DNA of 26,034 nucleotides from a virus, in IMG/VR virus record IMGVR_UViG_3300025806_002385, positions 1-26,034 of that record, one strand, 5' to 3'. Position 1 is the first letter of the stretch. Every line of letters begins with the position of its first letter. Made by a program: the position numbers and the translations under genes. This document shows, in pieces, positions 16 through 26,012 of this stretch. The notes below the pieces were generated by a model. The model worked only from the letters and a program-made list of their open reading frames with translations. It was not told where the DNA came from and ran no database searches.

Positions 16-1017
16 TTAGGCTTCTCTCACTTGGGCGTTTTGACTATGTGAATCAAATAAAACTTTCTTACCAGTAGTGAGATTTTCCTCAGTTTTTTCA
101 ATTGAAGATATTATTTTTCCGCATTGAGACTTACATAAACTAAATGATCTGTCATACCCTTTTAAGTAATTTTGTAATTTAGTCCAATAGTCATAGCTTA
201 GTATCTTTTCCAAAGGAACGTGTAGCCCATTAAATAGATTTTCAAACTTAGGAGGATAGTAAAATCTAGACTGAGCTTCATCATAGTAATGACCCCCAGT
301 CCAACAACATCTGAATACTAAACCCTCTGGAGATACATACCATTTACCCCAATTATCCCATACACATTTAATTACTCGTTCAGCTTTATCCATATTTTCT
401 TTACTTTTTTTAGAATGAACAAACTTTCCGGTTTTAGGAGCAAATACATCTCTAGAAGTTTTAACAGTAGAAAATGTATGAAAATTATGATCTAAAGCCA
501 TTTGCCTAGCTTCTTCTACTTGGTGTTTATTATGTTCAAATACAATATATTTCCAATGTACTTGTGCATTATTAGTTTTAATTACCGAACAAGCATTATT
601 AAATACATCTTCAAATTTAGTGTTAATACGATACTTTGAATGAGTATCTGATAGACCATCCATATCAAAATTAATAATATCACGTTTTGTTAATATATTA
701 CCTACATCTGACCAATAATCATCTCCATGAATACCTCCATTAGTATGAATTAGGATTCTAGTATCATGTTCTTTAACATATGATATAATTTCACGAAACT
801 GTTTATTCATAACAGAATCACCGAAGTTACCATTAATAACTAGCCATTCTAAATTTCTCAGTAGTTCAGGATAAAATAATTGTTTAAATCTATCTAATGA
901 TATAGTATATTTTTTATCATTTAAATTAATACGAAGAGGCTTAACTCTATGACAAGCAGGACATTTAGCATTACATCTAAAAGTTAGTTCAGTTGTGAGT
1001 TGTCTATATTTTCTCAT
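16..1017 (-). CDS. Radical SAM protein with C-terminal SPASM/twitch-like cysteines
   Basis: This 333-residue protein carries a radical SAM cluster motif at its very N terminus, CNAKCPAC (Cys15, Cys19, Cys22), preceded by a first beta strand (TTELTFR). The usual GGEP-type strand is replaced by an NGNFGDS variant near residues 62-68. The C-terminal part has further cysteines (Cys218, Cys237, Cys238, Cys295, Cys299) arranged like a twitch or SPASM auxiliary Fe-S domain, around a V-S-P-E-G-L-V turn. Enzymes of this type use SAM and a [4Fe-4S] cluster to start radical chemistry, often on peptides; the substrate here is unknown. The ATG overlaps the stop of the upstream fibre gene by 1 nt (TAATG), so the two are probably translated together. 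It is the last gene in the window and stops at 16. Family assignment is strong; function is inference. Confidence 0.85.
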   Translation of the reverse strand: MRKYRQLTTELTFRCNAKCPACHRVKPLRINLNDKKYTISLDRFKQLFYPELLRNLEWLVINGNFGDSVMNKQFREIISYVKEHDTRILIHTNGGIHGDDYWSDVGNILTKRDIINFDMDGLSDTHSKYRINTKFEDVFNNACSVIKTNNAQVHWKYIVFEHNKHQVEEARQMALDHNFHTFSTVKTSRDVFAPKTGKFVHSKKSKENMDKAERVIKCVWDNWGKWYVSPEGLVFRCCWTGGHYYDEAQSRFYYPPKFENLFNGLHVPLEKILSYDYWTKLQNYLKGYDRSFSLCKSQCGKIISSIEKTEENLTTGKKVLFDSHSQNAQVREA

Positions 1018-11740: not shown

Positions 11741-12479
11741 CAAACTGACTCCCTACACTAATTGTATCTCCACTACCATGTCCGATAGTAGTTATATAAC
11801 CACTTAAAAACTGACCAGCTACTCTATGCCTACCATATATTAAAGCAATAGGTGTTCCACTTGTAGAGGTATTAGTCAAAGATCCAAACATACCACTCTC
11901 TCGTGAATTAGACTCTGTCTGTTTACTCTCTCTTGCAGCAGGAGACTTAGTCATCATTTGTGAAACCATTGATAAACCTATTTGAAGACCTGCCATTTTT
12001 AATAGTGACATGCCTGTTACAGCAGTTGGTGCTGCGGTAGCACCAACCATGCCCGCTTCTGCAATACCTGGAGCAACCATAGGAGCACCTGGACCCAGCA
12101 GTGCAGGTCCTAGTACTGTAAATGCAAAATATATAGCAACTACAGCAAAAACAACATAAATAAGAGTTCTTATAGCTTTTCCACTTCCTCCTATAGCAGG
12201 AACTAAATGTATAGTTTCACCGTCTTTAAAGTGTTTAATGTCTATCATGTCTAAAGTAATTGGTTTTAAATCGCTATCTAATAAACAAAAAGGTTCTTCT
12301 GATTGTCCAGATAATATCTGTTTCATATATTTAGAAAATTCAGGATGTACCCCTTTAAGATATGCTATAATATCCTGAACTACTGTAGCCTCAAGTGAGT
12401 AAGTACTTTCTTTAAAAAATTTACTATATGCTGAATGTATTTTAAGATTTATTAACAAGATGTTCTTCCTTAAACTCAT
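11730..12479 (-). CDS. I-like tail assembly protein with ubiquitin-like N terminus
   Basis: About 249 residues. The first ~95 look like the beta-grasp (ubiquitin-like) domain of lambda tail assembly protein I, ending in L-V-P-A-I-G-G-S-G. A hydrophobic segment follows (about 103-130) and then a Gly/Ala/Met-rich stretch. The C-terminal signature is F-G-S-L-T-N-T-S-T-S-G-T-P-I-A-L-I-Y-G with a V-A-G-Q-F-L-S-G strand. In lambda the product is needed for tip assembly but is not abundant in the mature tail. Start choice is open: ATG at 12479 has no good ribosome site and overlaps the JAB gene by 38 nt. A TTG at 12458 has AAGGAAGA at 12464-12471 and would overlap by 17 nt, like the neighbouring genes. 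The 3' end overlaps the J-like gene. Confidence 0.85.
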   Translation of the reverse strand: MSLRKNILLINLKIHSAYSKFFKESTYSLEATVVQDIIAYLKGVHPEFSKYMKQILSGQSEEPFCLLDSDLKPITLDMIDIKHFKDGETIHLVPAIGGSGKAIRTLIYVVFAVVAIYFAFTVLGPALLGPGAPMVAPGIAEAGMVGATAAPTAVTGMSLLKMAGLQIGLSMVSQMMTKSPAARESKQTESNSRESGMFGSLTNTSTSGTPIALIYGRHRVAGQFLSGYITTIGHGSGDTISVGSQFDGI

Positions 12480-12819
12480 CAAATATGAGTACGTCTAGGT
12501 CTTGATCTAACCAGTATGTATAAAATTTATTATTAAATCCTACTAAAAAGGTGTATTCTTTAAAAGCAGCACTAACTTTATCTTCTTTACTAGGGATAGG
12601 ATTTTCATCACCAGGATGTGAGTGAAATATTCCCCATATATTTCCATCATTTCTTACTAAATCTGCAGGATCTAATAAAAATGTCATTTTTGGGTAAGGA
12701 GAAATATTAGAACAAGGAATGTAAGTAAAATCATTACTTATAATACCTACACACTCTTTTGGATAATCACGCAAAGCATGTGCATTCATATCTTCTTTTA
12801 GTTTTACAAATCTTTCCAT
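12442..12819 (-). CDS. JAB/MPN (JAMM) metallopeptidase, K-like N-terminal half
   Basis: A 125-residue stand-alone JAMM domain. The zinc-site residues are present: Glu22 in P-K-E-C-V-G-I-I, His66 and His68 in the HSHPG segment, then Ser77 and Asp80 in P-S-K-E-D. The gap between the second His and the Ser is 8 residues, one more than the common spacing. Lambda gpK joins this domain to an NlpC/P60 domain in one chain; here they are separate genes. It overlaps the NlpC gene before it by 16 nt and the I-like gene after it. Likely role: tail tip maturation or assembly peptidase. Catalysis is inferred from the motif. Confidence 0.88.
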   Translation of the reverse strand: MERFVKLKEDMNAHALRDYPKECVGIISNDFTYIPCSNISPYPKMTFLLDPADLVRNDGNIWGIFHSHPGDENPIPSKEDKVSAAFKEYTFLVGFNNKFYTYWLDQDLDVLIFDEFKEEHLVNKS

Positions 12820-13238
12820 CTAAATATCCCCGTAGTATACTGTTTATAGTAGTTACCGTAAGGTGCTACCCAACTTTTATGTTTTATCATGGTTTGTAAT
12901 ATTTTACCTCTATCAACGTATAACGCACAATGATTAGTAACATTAGTAGATCCCAAACTCATAGTAACAACATCATATAGCTGTATGTCCTTAACTTTTC
13001 TCCATCCATAAGTACCAGGTTCTTCACCATTTGGTTTTTCAAAGTATCTATTATGAGTTTTGCTATACCAATCTTCATCTACTATATTACAAAAATCAGA
13101 ACTAATATAGGGAATATCTATCCCTAATTCCTTTAGATATACTAATCTACAGAGATTAAAGCAATCAATCCCCGTCTCTGCATTATTACCTAAATGTAAA
13201 TATGGAAAATCTTTATATTTATTATACCAAACTGTCAT
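12804..13238 (-). CDS. NlpC/P60 family tail peptidase, second copy
   Basis: 144 residues. The nucleophile segment is T-G-I-D-C-F-N-L-C-R-L-V-Y (Cys26), and the His segment is T-N-H-C-A-L-Y-V-D (His103), followed by GKILQTM. The third polar position, His in many relatives, is Gln115 here; Gln is tolerated in some NlpC/P60 proteins. It resembles the C-terminal half of lambda gpK more than its upstream neighbour does. Expected activity is cleavage of D-Glu-diaminopimelate-type peptide bonds in cell-wall stems, or a structural tip role. The start has no obvious ribosome site and overlaps the preceding NlpC gene by 17 nt, so coupled translation is likely. Confidence 0.82.
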   Translation of the reverse strand: MTVWYNKYKDFPYLHLGNNAETGIDCFNLCRLVYLKELGIDIPYISSDFCNIVDEDWYSKTHNRYFEKPNGEEPGTYGWRKVKDIQLYDVVTMSLGSTNVTNHCALYVDRGKILQTMIKHKSWVAPYGNYYKQYTTGIFRWKDL

Positions 13239-13611
13239 GTCTATAGATCGAATGTATACTCTCTATCCAATCGTCAGATAAAGTTTCTACACGCGAAAAT
13301 CCCCCCGCTGCGATGTGTAACATTTTAGAAGGCATTAAGTACATACCAAAATGTATTATTAAATCCGTTTTTACTGATTTGAATACTATTACATCATAAT
13401 CTTTAGCGTTTGTCAAACTTACTTTTTTAGAACATTTTGCTGCTAATGTATCAACATTATCAGGTTTAAATTGTTTCATCCATTTTAGTGAATGTGGATA
13501 ATCAGGTAAAGAAAAGTCTAAACCTAATTCATTAAGATAAAAACTTTTAATTAAAGTAATACAATTTATACCTGAGTAGGTATGGGGTAAACCTATATAT
13601 TTTCGTACCAT
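13222..13611 (-). CDS. NlpC/P60 family tail peptidase, first copy
   Basis: 129 residues with a complete Cys-His-His set: Cys17 in Y-S-G-I-N-C-I-T-L, His87 in I-I-H-F-G-M-Y-L and His99 in K-M-L-H-I-A-A-G-G. It shares the fold pattern and length of the next gene, but only scattered identities beyond the motifs, so the two are old paralogues or separate acquisitions rather than a fresh duplication. A GGAG site precedes the ATG by about 8 nt. It overlaps the radical SAM gene by 19 nt. Position in the tip cluster argues for a tail-borne wall peptidase rather than a lysis endolysin. Confidence 0.8.
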   Translation of the reverse strand: MVRKYIGLPHTYSGINCITLIKSFYLNELGLDFSLPDYPHSLKWMKQFKPDNVDTLAAKCSKKVSLTNAKDYDVIVFKSVKTDLIIHFGMYLMPSKMLHIAAGGFSRVETLSDDWIESIHSIYRHDSLV

Positions 13612-14816
13612 GATGCAAACTCCGGAAAGGTTTTAACAAATGATTCATTACGTAGCTTATCTACTCTTTCAGTCTCCTGTTTAAAAGATGCTAGTTGATT
13701 ACTTTCATCTGTGCTAGTCATATAACTTAGCCAATTTTTTATTTGTTCTAAGTCATATGTTGTTAAAATTGGTCTATATTCTTTTATAAATTTTTTATAT
13801 ATAGCTAATACTTGTTGTTTAGATTCTTTAGGTAAGCATGTAACTTTTTGGTAAGAAGGCTCTAACTGTGTTGATCCATAAAAATCAAAATCATTACGTT
13901 TACACCATAATATAAGATCTGGCATAGAAGTTATGCTATAAATATTTATTACACAACTAACTGTTTGTATATGGTCTCTAAACATAATAGCATGTTTTTC
14001 AAATTTAGTCCAGGATAATCCTTTCCTAGCATACTCTACTCTAGTTCCATATCCTTCAATACTAGGCCAGATAGATACTTTTTTAAAATTAGACCATAAC
14101 TCGGTAAGATCATATTTTTTAAATTTAGAATAACTTAGGTTTGTATTATAACTAATATGAATATTTTTAGCATAACCAGAATCAATCATTAACATTAGCA
14201 TTTTATAATGACCTTCTTGCACAAAAGGCTCACCTCCTGCAAAATATATTTCTTCTAAGTTAGGTATATATTGTGGTACATCTTTCCAAAAATCGTCATT
14301 ATCAGTATAGTAATCAATTGTTTTTGACCATTTAGGATCATCACTATCTTTATACCAGCTAGTAGAAGCATAAGGACCACACATTCTGCATTTAAAATTA
14401 CATAGATTACCAAATCTAATATCTAAATATGTAGGAGTATTATCTATGCTACCATCTTCATTAGTTTTATCTTGTATGTAAGCATTTTTAGAAAATCTTT
14501 GATTTACTTGTAATCTGTTACTACCACTACCTTGTTTTTCCTTATTATAACACGCCTCAATACACTCACTAGGTATTTCATCTTTTAAGAAACTAAGACG
14601 AGCTTGTTTATAATCTTCATTATTCCAAATATCTCCTAAAGATTGTTTGTAGGTTCCCATAGATTTGGGATTAGAAGTATACTCAGCATGACAACATATA
14701 TAAAAGTTACCCCCTAAACTGCCAAATAAATGCATCCATGGAAGTATACAACCTTTTATATTAGTGTTTAGGGATTGTTCGTCCTGTCGCAGGGAAGCCT
14801 CCAAAATGTATTCCAT
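13593..14816 (-). CDS. Twitch-domain radical SAM protein
   Basis: 407 residues. The radical SAM motif CNFKCRMC (Cys139, Cys143, Cys146) sits in L-D-I-R-F-G-N-L, and the SAM-binding strand YFAGGEPF follows (GGEP at 194-197). Unusually, the auxiliary-cluster-like segment comes first: C-I-L-P-W-M-H-L (Cys23), Y-I-C-C-H (Cys41, Cys42), then Cys85 and Cys89. I associate this order with proteins named twitch domain-containing radical SAM protein, common in marine phages. The substrate is unknown. The gene overlaps the end of the L-like gene by 56 nt and the NlpC gene by 19 nt. The ATG lacks a good ribosome site; a GGAGG lies inside the first codons, so a slightly later non-ATG start is possible. 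Confidence 0.88.
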   Translation of the reverse strand: MEYILEASLRQDEQSLNTNIKGCILPWMHLFGSLGGNFYICCHAEYTSNPKSMGTYKQSLGDIWNNEDYKQARLSFLKDEIPSECIEACYNKEKQGSGSNRLQVNQRFSKNAYIQDKTNEDGSIDNTPTYLDIRFGNLCNFKCRMCGPYASTSWYKDSDDPKWSKTIDYYTDNDDFWKDVPQYIPNLEEIYFAGGEPFVQEGHYKMLMLMIDSGYAKNIHISYNTNLSYSKFKKYDLTELWSNFKKVSIWPSIEGYGTRVEYARKGLSWTKFEKHAIMFRDHIQTVSCVINIYSITSMPDLILWCKRNDFDFYGSTQLEPSYQKVTCLPKESKQQVLAIYKKFIKEYRPILTTYDLEQIKNWLSYMTSTDESNQLASFKQETERVDKLRNESFVKTFPEFASWYENI

Positions 14817-23774: not shown

Positions 23775-24131
23775 TTACCCCTTTTTACTTCTACGTGAAG
23801 TTTTAGCTTCTTGTGCGTAATATTTTCCTAGTATAGACTCAGCTTCTTTTAATAGTACAAATACTGCACGTCTATCATCAACTTCATAGATATCCATGAT
23901 AGTACCTAAACCACTATAGTCTTTCCCTAACCAAGTACCATTCATACCTTCCCATATATCGGGAAGAGCATTAAGAACAGTTAGAGCTTGTTGACACTCT
24001 AGCGATAGATTAGAACCATCTTGAGGTAGATCTTCCTCTTTTGGTTCCCAACCCATCTGTTCACACATCAATATGTATTGATCTGCCGTTAAGCCACCAC
24101 CCCCAAAAGAACTTTGGAGGTAGTCAGTTAG
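23775..24131 (-). CDS. Frameshift extension of the tail chaperone (GT-like)
   Basis: This frame is open from the slip site at 24131 to the stop at 23775 and encodes 118 residues when entered by -1 frameshifting, making a fusion of about 261 residues with the preceding ORF. The junction reads A-E-T-N-I-K-N, then L-T-D-Y-L-Q-S-S-F-G-G-G-G. Its conserved-looking core is M-C-E-Q-M-G-W-E-P, and it ends in a basic tail (S-R-R-S-K-K-G). A free start at ATG 24068 (or TTG 24071) is possible but has no ribosome site and would discard a plausible linker. In lambda gpG/gpGT the extension recruits tail tube subunits to the tape measure; the same role is inferred here from position just before the tape measure gene. 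Confidence 0.85.
   Translation of the reverse strand, partial: LTDYLQSSFGGGGLTADQYILMCEQMGWEPKEEDLPQDGSNLSLECQQALTVLNALPDIWEGMNGTWLGKDYSGLGTIMDIYEVDDRRAVFVLLKEAESILGKYYAQEAKTSRRSKKG
24100..24120 (-). promoter_or_regulatory. Stimulatory hairpin for -1 frameshifting
   Basis: In the minus-strand RNA, CCTCCAAA (24120-24113) pairs with TTTGGGGG (24107-24100) around the five-base loop GTTCT. That gives 8 pairs, one of them a G-U wobble. The stem begins 10 nt after the slip site, slightly longer than the usual 5-9 nt spacer. Confidence 0.6.
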
Positions 24132-24559
24132 TTTTTTATGTTGGTTTCAGCTTTCTTAACTGAGAACTGTTCAAAATCATTCATGGTATCTGTGATGAAC
24201 TGATCAAAAATCGTTGAATTTTTTAAAAGTTCAATTGCATCTTCCATAGAATACTCTACTTCTTCTGCGGCGTCCATTGTTGAAATGTCAACAGGTAAAA
24301 GAACCGGTAAATGCTTTACTTGAAGCCCTTTCCAGCCAGCAATAGCTTTTTCTGCATATGCTTCAAGAAATTTTTCATTGTCAACTTCTTCTTCACGTTG
24401 GCGAGTACGTTTATTGAACTTGTATGTAAGAGCTTTATTACGCACTTTCATTAAATCCTCGCGTGAAAGATAACGAAGGTGAATTTCAAAACCTTCAATT
24501 TCTGGAAACTCAACCCAAGTTGCTGTTTCTTTAGCGATTAAGCCTTTAATTTTACTCAT
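24128..24559 (-). CDS. Tail assembly chaperone (G-like)
   Basis: 143 residues, charged and mostly helical after a short beta start (T-W-V-E-F-P, then F-E-I-H-L-R-Y-L-S-R-E-D-L). Such small acidic proteins between the tube and tape measure genes are the G-type tail chaperones. They coat the tape measure during assembly and are absent from the virion. The slip site at its last codons confirms the assignment better than its sequence does. The ribosome site is GAGGGG (24571-24566), and an upstream RNA arm may compete for it. A strong signal between this gene and the tube gene suggests the two are expressed at different levels. Confidence 0.88.
   Translation of the reverse strand: MSKIKGLIAKETATWVEFPEIEGFEIHLRYLSREDLMKVRNKALTYKFNKRTRQREEEVDNEKFLEAYAEKAIAGWKGLQVKHLPVLLPVDISTMDAAEEVEYSMEDAIELLKNSTIFDQFITDTMNDFEQFSVKKAETNIKN
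24131..24137 (-). promoter_or_regulatory. A_AAA_AAC slippery heptamer for programmed -1 frameshift
   Basis: The end of the chaperone ORF reads ATA AAA AAC TAA, so the heptamer A AAA AAC sits exactly in the X_XXY_YYZ phase, with the zero-frame stop directly after it. A slip of one base back continues as CTA ACT GAC TAC and stays open to 23775. This is the classic arrangement for G/GT-type tail chaperones. Confidence 0.9.
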
Positions 24560-24584
24560 AGTTTTCCCCTCTAGGATGATAAAC

Positions 24585-24681
24585 GAACACCCACTACATA
24601 TCTGCTTGTCTTAGGTGAGGGGGAACCTGGACTTGCAAGTAGTGGGTGTTCTTCTGGTTAATAATGTGGTGTTCCCCCTCA
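24585..24681 (-). promoter_or_regulatory. Interleaved inverted repeats in the only intergenic gap
   Basis: The 142-nt gap between the tube and chaperone genes holds two perfect inverted repeats in crossed order. On the plus strand, arm A is GAACACCCACTAC (24585-24597), B is TGAGGGGGAAC (24616-24626), A' is GTAGTGGGTGTTC (24639-24651) and B' is GTTCCCCCTCA (24671-24681). Pairing A with A' (13 bp) and B with B' (11 bp) together would make an H-type pseudoknot with spacers of 12-19 nt; otherwise they are competing hairpins. The perfect palindrome ACTTGCAAGT (24631-24640) lies between. No clear U-run follows either stem, so a standard terminator is not well supported. A role in lowering or tuning downstream chaperone expression is inference. 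Confidence 0.7.
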
Positions 24682-24701
24682 GAAACACATTAATTTTTTA
24701 A

Positions 24702-26012
24702 TTAAGCTTTGATAGCTACAATCTCAACTTCTCCGCCATCGCCTTTATTAGCATCAAGTTCTTGTGCCATAAAGTCAACACTCATAGAGATAACATCTTC
24801 AGTTTGAATTGCTGGGAAACTAAACTGTGCTGCATTCATTTGGAAAGCAACGTATGGCGCAGTAGTTCCGCCAATAATAACATTAGCATTAGATGTTTGA
24901 GCAGAGTTAGTGCGAGTATCTTCACTAATATTACGTAAGAAACCTGCAGATTCTAAATCTCCTGCACGCAGATACATAGTAGTAGAACCTGTTACACTTC
25001 TAGTTCCTGAGAATTGACCAATAGGCTCGTTAAGGGCAGAGATTTGCTCTGGAGTAAGATAGGTAATATTGTTATTATACTCGATATTCATAGAAGTTAC
25101 TGGGAAAGTAAACTTTTCATCAGAAGCTGATGCAGTTGCTTTATGATGGAACTCAATAGCACTCAAACGATTTTTAATAAATGAGTTAGTTGTTACTGTA
25201 CCGGCAACATTCATAGTATTAAATGGGTGATAAGCAGATGCAGCGCTAAGTGCGTGAGCATTAGAGTTACCCACAACAGCTGTACCACCAGCATTTTTAA
25301 TACCGCCAAAGGTTGCAACAGCAATATCTCTTGGCGCTCCGGTAAGTTCTTTCATTGTAGTACCGAAACCACTCCAAGTAACAGTAGCAATGTCTTCGAT
25401 TCCTGCATCAACAGATGCTGAATTAACAGTAGCTTTGTCTACTTGATAGATTACGTTATCAAGTTTAAAGTACATAAAGTATTCTGGGGCAACAGCCCAA
25501 TTAGATGTTGAAGCATGAATACGAGTTCCCGCTGTGATAGTATTAGTTTTAAGAGTACCACCAGTTTGCCAAATAGATTGCTCTGCTACACGAGTAGCAG
25601 CTACTTGCGATTTTGTAGCAGCAAGAGTACTTGAAGTAAGAGCTTGCCACATATACCAATCTGCAAGAGGTTTTGTGTTGCCTGATTCATTAGTTTTTGC
25701 AACAGTGCCATTAGCAGCACCAGTAGTTTCTACACCTGTTGGGCGCATATACACCTGAATATTCCAATCAACAGGATTGATTGCGGTATTGAATCTTTGT
25801 TGTGAACGATCTGGGCTAAGACCCGATTCGAGAGAAGTGATGTCTTGAGTAGCTGATGTAGAAGTAGCAGCAAAACCAGCTAATACCTCAAGTTTCCAGG
25901 TATTAGCCGGAGTCATTGCTACAGCAACTGACGCTGAACCACTAGTGGTACCAAGTATGTCAACTGTTGAAAAGAACACTTCAGAATTTCTCTGTAAATT
26001 GAGAGATGCCAT
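24702..26012 (-). CDS. Major tail tube protein
   Basis: 436 residues, Ala/Thr/Ser-rich and beta-rich, with no cysteine and no membrane segment. Its position immediately before the chaperone pair and tape measure is where the major tail protein gene lies in lambda-like phages. Sequence features fitting a tube protein include the N-terminal strand S-L-N-L-Q-R-N-S-E-V-F-F, a central W-N-I-Q-V-Y-M-R-P segment and a C-terminal V-I-S-M-S-V-D-F-M-A-Q strand. It is longer than lambda gpV, so it may carry an added surface domain. A strong ribosome site (AAGGAG) precedes the ATG, fitting a product needed in many copies. Assignment rests on context more than on a recognised motif. Confidence 0.85.
   Translation of the reverse strand: MASLNLQRNSEVFFSTVDILGTTSGSASVAVAMTPANTWKLEVLAGFAATSTSATQDITSLESGLSPDRSQQRFNTAINPVDWNIQVYMRPTGVETTGAANGTVAKTNESGNTKPLADWYMWQALTSSTLAATKSQVAATRVAEQSIWQTGGTLKTNTITAGTRIHASTSNWAVAPEYFMYFKLDNVIYQVDKATVNSASVDAGIEDIATVTWSGFGTTMKELTGAPRDIAVATFGGIKNAGGTAVVGNSNAHALSAASAYHPFNTMNVAGTVTTNSFIKNRLSAIEFHHKATASASDEKFTFPVTSMNIEYNNNITYLTPEQISALNEPIGQFSGTRSVTGSTTMYLRAGDLESAGFLRNISEDTRTNSAQTSNANVIIGGTTAPYVAFQMNAAQFSFPAIQTEDVISMSVDFMAQELDANKGDGGEVEIVAIKA

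Follow-up and report, generated by a model that had tools for sequence, protein, structure and literature searches.

A predicted structured RNA conserved between the tail tube and tail assembly chaperone genes of uncultured phages

The mRNA of T4 gene 32 carries, 67 nt ahead of the start codon, an H-type pseudoknot to which gp32 binds, with a single-stranded A+U region over the ribosome site (PMC3014915). The manA and wcaG motifs are conserved structured RNAs of marine phages and metagenomes (PMC2864571). In the guanidine-II riboswitch, a kissing contact between the loops of two hairpins has been proposed (PMC9094411).

The tube-chaperone gap and its inverted repeats

Our window, i.e. the whole stretch of DNA analysed, is IMG/VR record IMGVR_UViG_3300025806_002385, positions 1-26,034 (26,034 nt); its closest cultured relatives are Demerecviridae (T5-like), at protein identity below 60%. 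The largest gap in its ORF list is the 142 nt from the stop codon of the major tail (tube) protein gene to the start of the tail assembly chaperone gene, both on the minus strand. Gene order continues from the chaperone into a second chaperone frame and then a tape measure gene (1707 aa). In this gap we find an element that almost certainly encodes, on the minus strand, a conserved structured RNA, as judged by comparing related phages. It is most likely an intercistronic element that acts in cis within the tail mRNA. Its length is about 120 nt, and it occupies the entire gap, from the tube stop codon to the chaperone ribosome site.

We note some further features of the tail module: (i) An A AAA AAC slippery site (24131-24137, minus strand) lies just before the chaperone stop codon and is conserved in L042, L064, L080, L093 and other relatives; a -1 shift there extends the chaperone through the next frame as far as 23775, giving a protein of 261 aa. 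Such a shift at the chaperone end is the usual G-GT tail chaperone frameshift. The segments CCUCCAAA..UUUUGGGGG may form a hairpin 3' of the site in the window. (ii) Two radical SAM domain genes lie within the module (13593-14816 and 16-1017, minus strand); we know of no role for such genes in tails. (iii) At 12442-13611 (minus strand) are two adjacent small ORFs that both resemble NlpC/P60-type peptidases, and the ORF after them resembles a JAMM-type protein, by motifs only, as among tail-tip genes of other siphophages.

A sequence-only reading of the window had described two perfect inverted repeats in crossed order within the gap, and both are there: one of 13 bp (24585-24597/24639-24651) and one of 11 bp (24616-24626/24671-24681). 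Read 5' to 3' on the minus strand, the arms are UGAGGGGGAAC (24681-24671), GAACACCCACUAC (24651-24639), GUUCCCCCUCA (24626-24616) and GUAGUGGGUGUUC (24597-24585). Dinucleotide shuffling of the 141-nt region gave the crossed 13 x 11 pattern in 4 of 5000 shuffles; a 13-bp repeat, of which the real window has one, arose in none of 20 whole-window shuffles. Also present is the six-base complementarity of GAGGGG (24571-24566) to CCCCUC (24622-24617). Unseen in that reading was a separate 7-bp hairpin (24688-24682/24675-24669), here termed H1, whose loop and 3' arm are made up by the 5' part of the 11-bp repeat.

Fold, covariation and distribution

IMG/VR protein searches and pattern scans yielded over 300 loci, of which many overlap; the loci obtained by protein search were not selected for the RNA element. 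They include 113 distinct upstream regions, all carrying it: by an automatic rule that in part permits short arms, 112 of the 113 show GAGG followed by an inverted repeat enclosing CCCUC, and the last (L108) shows the same with a mismatch. The window belongs to variant A of the element, for which covariation was counted over 34 representatives (alignment A3); more distant relatives carry variant B. Comparison shows a predicted hairpin H1 followed by a long P2-P3-P4 arm with apical loop CCCCUCA, while P3 and P4 are supported less strongly in variant A. The features in the window, in the order in which the mRNA would carry them, are:

24702-26012, minus strand: tube protein gene (phrog_3575, E 4.5e-44), 5' of the element
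24682-24688, minus strand: H1 5' arm GUGUUUC; 6/7 H1 pairs changed on both sides; recovered by RNAalifold
24676-24681, minus strand: H1 loop UGAGGG, predicted kissing strand 1; partner 24616-24621 (99.5% of cells paired), with hardly any variation
24669-24675, minus strand: H1 3' arm GGAACAC; covariation
24653-24658, minus strand: conserved unpaired ACCAGA, the linker before P2; alignment A3
24639-24651, minus strand: P2 5' strand GAACACCCACUAC; double changes in 12/14 P2 columns, 98.4% of cells paired
24635-24638, minus strand: predicted P3 5' strand UUGC; RNAalifold consensus
24626-24628, minus strand: predicted P4 5' strand AGG; A-U to G-C double change at one pair in 3 sequences
24616-24625, minus strand: predicted P4 apical loop UUCCCCCUCA, facing the H1 loop and complementary to the ribosome site
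24613-24615, minus strand: predicted P4 3' strand CCU; RNAalifold
24602-24605, minus strand: predicted P3 3' strand GCAG; RNAalifold; then a conserved AUAU bulge (24601-24598)
24585-24597, minus strand: P2 3' strand GUAGUGGGUGUUC; covariation
24566-24571, minus strand: chaperone ribosome site GAGGGG, a repeat of the H1 loop sequence that is complementary to the P4 loop
24128-24559, minus strand: chaperone gene (phrog_313, E 1.1e-15), 3' of the element

In variant A, 18 pairs of H1 and P2 carry double changes, and the alignment holds 102 double-change cells against 32 in shuffles, with none of 500 shuffles as high; the sequences are related, so that these counts, like the others over relatives, are not independent. 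When the partners are slid along each other, pairing drops from 93% to 42-57%. The H1 of the window (GUGUUUC-UGAGGG-GGAACAC) is replaced in relatives by AUGUUUC..GGAACAU, UAUUUC..GAAAUA and UUGUUCU..AGAACAA, for example. The 13-bp repeat is thereby upheld as a true stem (P2), and the search for relatives lacking the repeats or the compensatory changes, proposed in the sequence-only reading, came out in favor of a structured RNA. RNAalifold independently finds H1 and P2 and adds P3 (UUGC/GCAG) and P4 (AGG/CCU); the P3 pairing is weak evidence, since it is nearly invariant. Even with the pseudoknot excluded, folding of the window RNA lies 3.8 s.d. below that of shuffles. When the minus strand is read, there are 56 G-U cells to 10 A-C cells, an excess that fits an RNA of that strand and disfavors function at the DNA level.

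The 11-bp repeat fared differently. Its loop part (6 bp) is kept in practically all relatives, but its 5-bp extension is complete in 17 of the 34 variant-A representatives. We therefore reject, as the conserved form, a simple H-type pseudoknot with 11- and 13-bp stems: the 13-bp stem is kept, while the extension of the other is often broken and the competing H1 is kept and covaries. P3 and P4 would place CCCUCA in a hairpin loop, so that the pairing becomes loop-loop kissing of two hairpins rather than an 11-bp helix, and it is strongly suggested that the H1 loop UGAGGG kisses the P4 apical loop. Both partners are predicted as hairpins with complementary loops, H1 covarying and P4 weak in variant A but good in variant B. 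Five of the six loop-loop pairs (UGAGGG/CCCUCA) never vary; with the kissing pairs nearly invariant, covariation speaks neither for nor against the kiss. The predicted conserved fold accounts for both repeats without the partial complementarity between the outermost arms that had also been pointed out.

Variant B is carried by L281-L306, most of L310-L368, and L308, a contig of a SAR86 MAG. It keeps H1, P2 and the GAGGGG/CCCCUC loops, while a P4 stem that is mostly longer (often 7-8 bp) replaces the apical region of variant A. Of the 23 arm pairs tested in variant B, 14 changed on both sides, and double-change cells number 72, compared with 23 in shuffles. Its H1 stems include AAUUUCUA/UAGAAAUU, UUAGUUA/UAACUAA and UUUAUGA/UCAUAAA. 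Seventeen stems from both variants were listed by hand, picked by eye and without weak ones such as that of L288; in these, 115 of 115 positions pair, versus 61% after arms are swapped between phages. A model built from variant A alone detects variant B at the same gene position (E 1e-4 to 0.03).

The element was seen nowhere outside the tube-chaperone gene pair, in a search that was not exhaustive. A covariance model finds none in five cultured T5-like genomes (L196-L200), in which tube and chaperone are separated by at least one other gene (where there is an annotation, a minor tail gene). With these five genomes free of such an RNA, the element belongs to an uncultured clade of IMG/VR metagenome contigs. 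We infer that this clade is marine from one SAR86 MAG and the general character of the relatives. In bacterial and archaeal genomes a pattern scan did not find the element, and the protein scan recovered only two short contigs of that MAG (L308, L309). There, a chaperone gene relative occurs with a variant-B element, which either hints at the host or reflects a phage contig that was binned wrongly. DNA similarity in cultured phages gave only chance matches in Bacillus SPO1-like phages and no homologous element.

Readings of the element's function

The sequence GAGGGG serves as the chaperone ribosome site in 20 of 28 contigs, compared with 0 of 100 other genes and 1 of 107 in a second other-gene set. 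Among 59 representatives, the ribosome site can form at least six contiguous pairs with the P4 loop in 48, and at least five in 57, whereas the sites of other genes do so at 1.4-2% and about 6%, respectively. The P4 loop is thus a conserved segment complementary to the ribosome site. One variant-B group has a canonical AAGGAG and then GAGGGG close to the AUG; with a separate AAGGAG beside it, GAGGGG seems to be kept for something other than ribosome binding. Five representatives have a reduced or absent ribosome-site match (L083 with AAGGA; L082, L093, L097 and L112 with GAGGAA) and retain the match between H1 and P4, so that the kiss is the more constant of the two pairings.

The element probably sets the amount of tail assembly chaperone made. 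The likeliest mechanism, which we rate about as probable as not, is a translation switch acting in cis, with the H1 loop and the chaperone ribosome site as competitors for one P4 loop. The segments would then be laid out as anti-anti-SD (H1 loop), anti-SD (P4 loop) and SD (ribosome site). With the kiss between H1 and P4 formed, the ribosome site would be free and the chaperone translated. Opening of H1, e.g. by a bound protein or ligand, or by ribosomes that finish translating the tube gene just a few bases before it, would free the CCCCUC loop, which could then cover the ribosome site and lower chaperone translation, the net effect being chaperone output kept low relative to tube output. A pseudoknot or ribosome-site switch had been proposed from the repeats at the outset, and it is still the best reading, now with hairpin loop kissing hairpin loop.

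Across relatives the distance from the tube stop to H1 is 0-16 nt, short enough in many of them for H1 to be opened by a terminating ribosome; since the distance varies, such opening cannot be the same in all of them, and the terminating ribosome as trigger is speculative. It is doubtful that the switch senses ribosome traffic on the tube gene, which would balance tail-tube and tail-chaperone output by RNA alone and make it a new class of RNA switch. Readthrough or bypass of the stop codon into the chaperone was set aside, since the tube stop often has additional stop codons after it.

Competition for the ribosome site leaves the conserved unpaired ACCAGA and the AUAU bulge unexplained. Together with a third conserved unpaired motif, RAWUCA, these exceed the needs of base pairing and point toward an operator or aptamer, i.e. 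a folded RNA that binds a phage protein (tube or chaperone, autogenously) or a small ligand and so alters chaperone translation, with or without pairing to the ribosome site. T4 gene 32 is a precedent, its phage mRNA pseudoknot being bound by the gene's own product (PMC3014915). Against this, most of the apical internal-loop sequence is replaced in variant B with synteny kept, and the regulated gene is not metabolic, nor does a chaperone gene suggest a ligand; we consider this reading unlikely.

We rate similarly low the chance that P2 is a partial terminator (attenuator) stem, a 3'-end exonuclease block or a processing site, so that less mRNA would extend into the chaperone, tape measure and later genes than spans the tube gene. 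The position fits, as the gene before it supplies a protein required in many copies, and in variant B the G+C-rich P2 stands directly before a U run (5 or more T of 8 in 23/25). A U run also follows P2 in some variant-A clades (16/34), but several variant-A members have 0-3 T of 8 there, and the window has only GUUUAUCA, a weak U run. In a few variant-A clades (L041, L042, L067, L116) a run of 6-7 U directly follows P2, as in variant B, so that likeness to a terminator varies within the family. Given the run in variant B, partial termination may act as well. The P2 loop, at about 40-55 nt, is of unusual size for a terminator, and this reading predicts neither the kissing loops nor the second GAGGGG at the ribosome site nor the conserved unpaired bases. 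A terminator pattern scan that allowed only short loops found none at the gap. Least probable is that the stable RNA acts purely as a structural spacer or insulator, blocking re-starting on the chaperone by ribosomes ending on the tube gene: this suits an RNA filling the whole gap, but any stable hairpin would suffice for it, and it predicts neither conserved loops nor a repeated GAGGGG.

Comparison with described RNAs

Virion structural genes are often on shared mRNAs and are needed in very different amounts; to our knowledge, little is known of how phages control structural-gene ratios beyond promoters, terminators and frameshifting. A strongly conserved RNA between tube and chaperone genes in a widespread uncultured, putatively marine phage group offers a defined, testable cis element for such ratios.

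The element is an RNA family missing from Rfam: searches of the window and 13 relatives against Rfam 15 at relaxed E-values gave no covariance-model match at the element. We found no published account of it in open-licence full text. In T4-like cyanophages, the manA and wcaG motifs have been reported with metabolic, photosynthesis, ibpA or exopolysaccharide genes (PMC2864571), and the Rfam search gives no match to them here. With the guanidine-II riboswitch (PMC9094411), the predicted element shares the proposed kissing of two hairpin loops and differs in the loops, the gene context and the lack of an Rfam match.

The T4 gene 32 operator is the nearest functional analogue, likewise a phage mRNA pseudoknot 5' of the ribosome site and thought to control translation (PMC3014915). 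The present element, by contrast, would be a loop-loop kiss of two hairpins with an anti-ribosome-site loop; it lies among tail genes and has no known ligand. Nearest in layout are the translational riboswitches. They differ in that no ligand is known here, that the element sits between two phage structural genes and that Rfam holds no match for it; alike are the predicted order of anti-anti-SD, anti-SD and SD and the presence of conserved unpaired bases.
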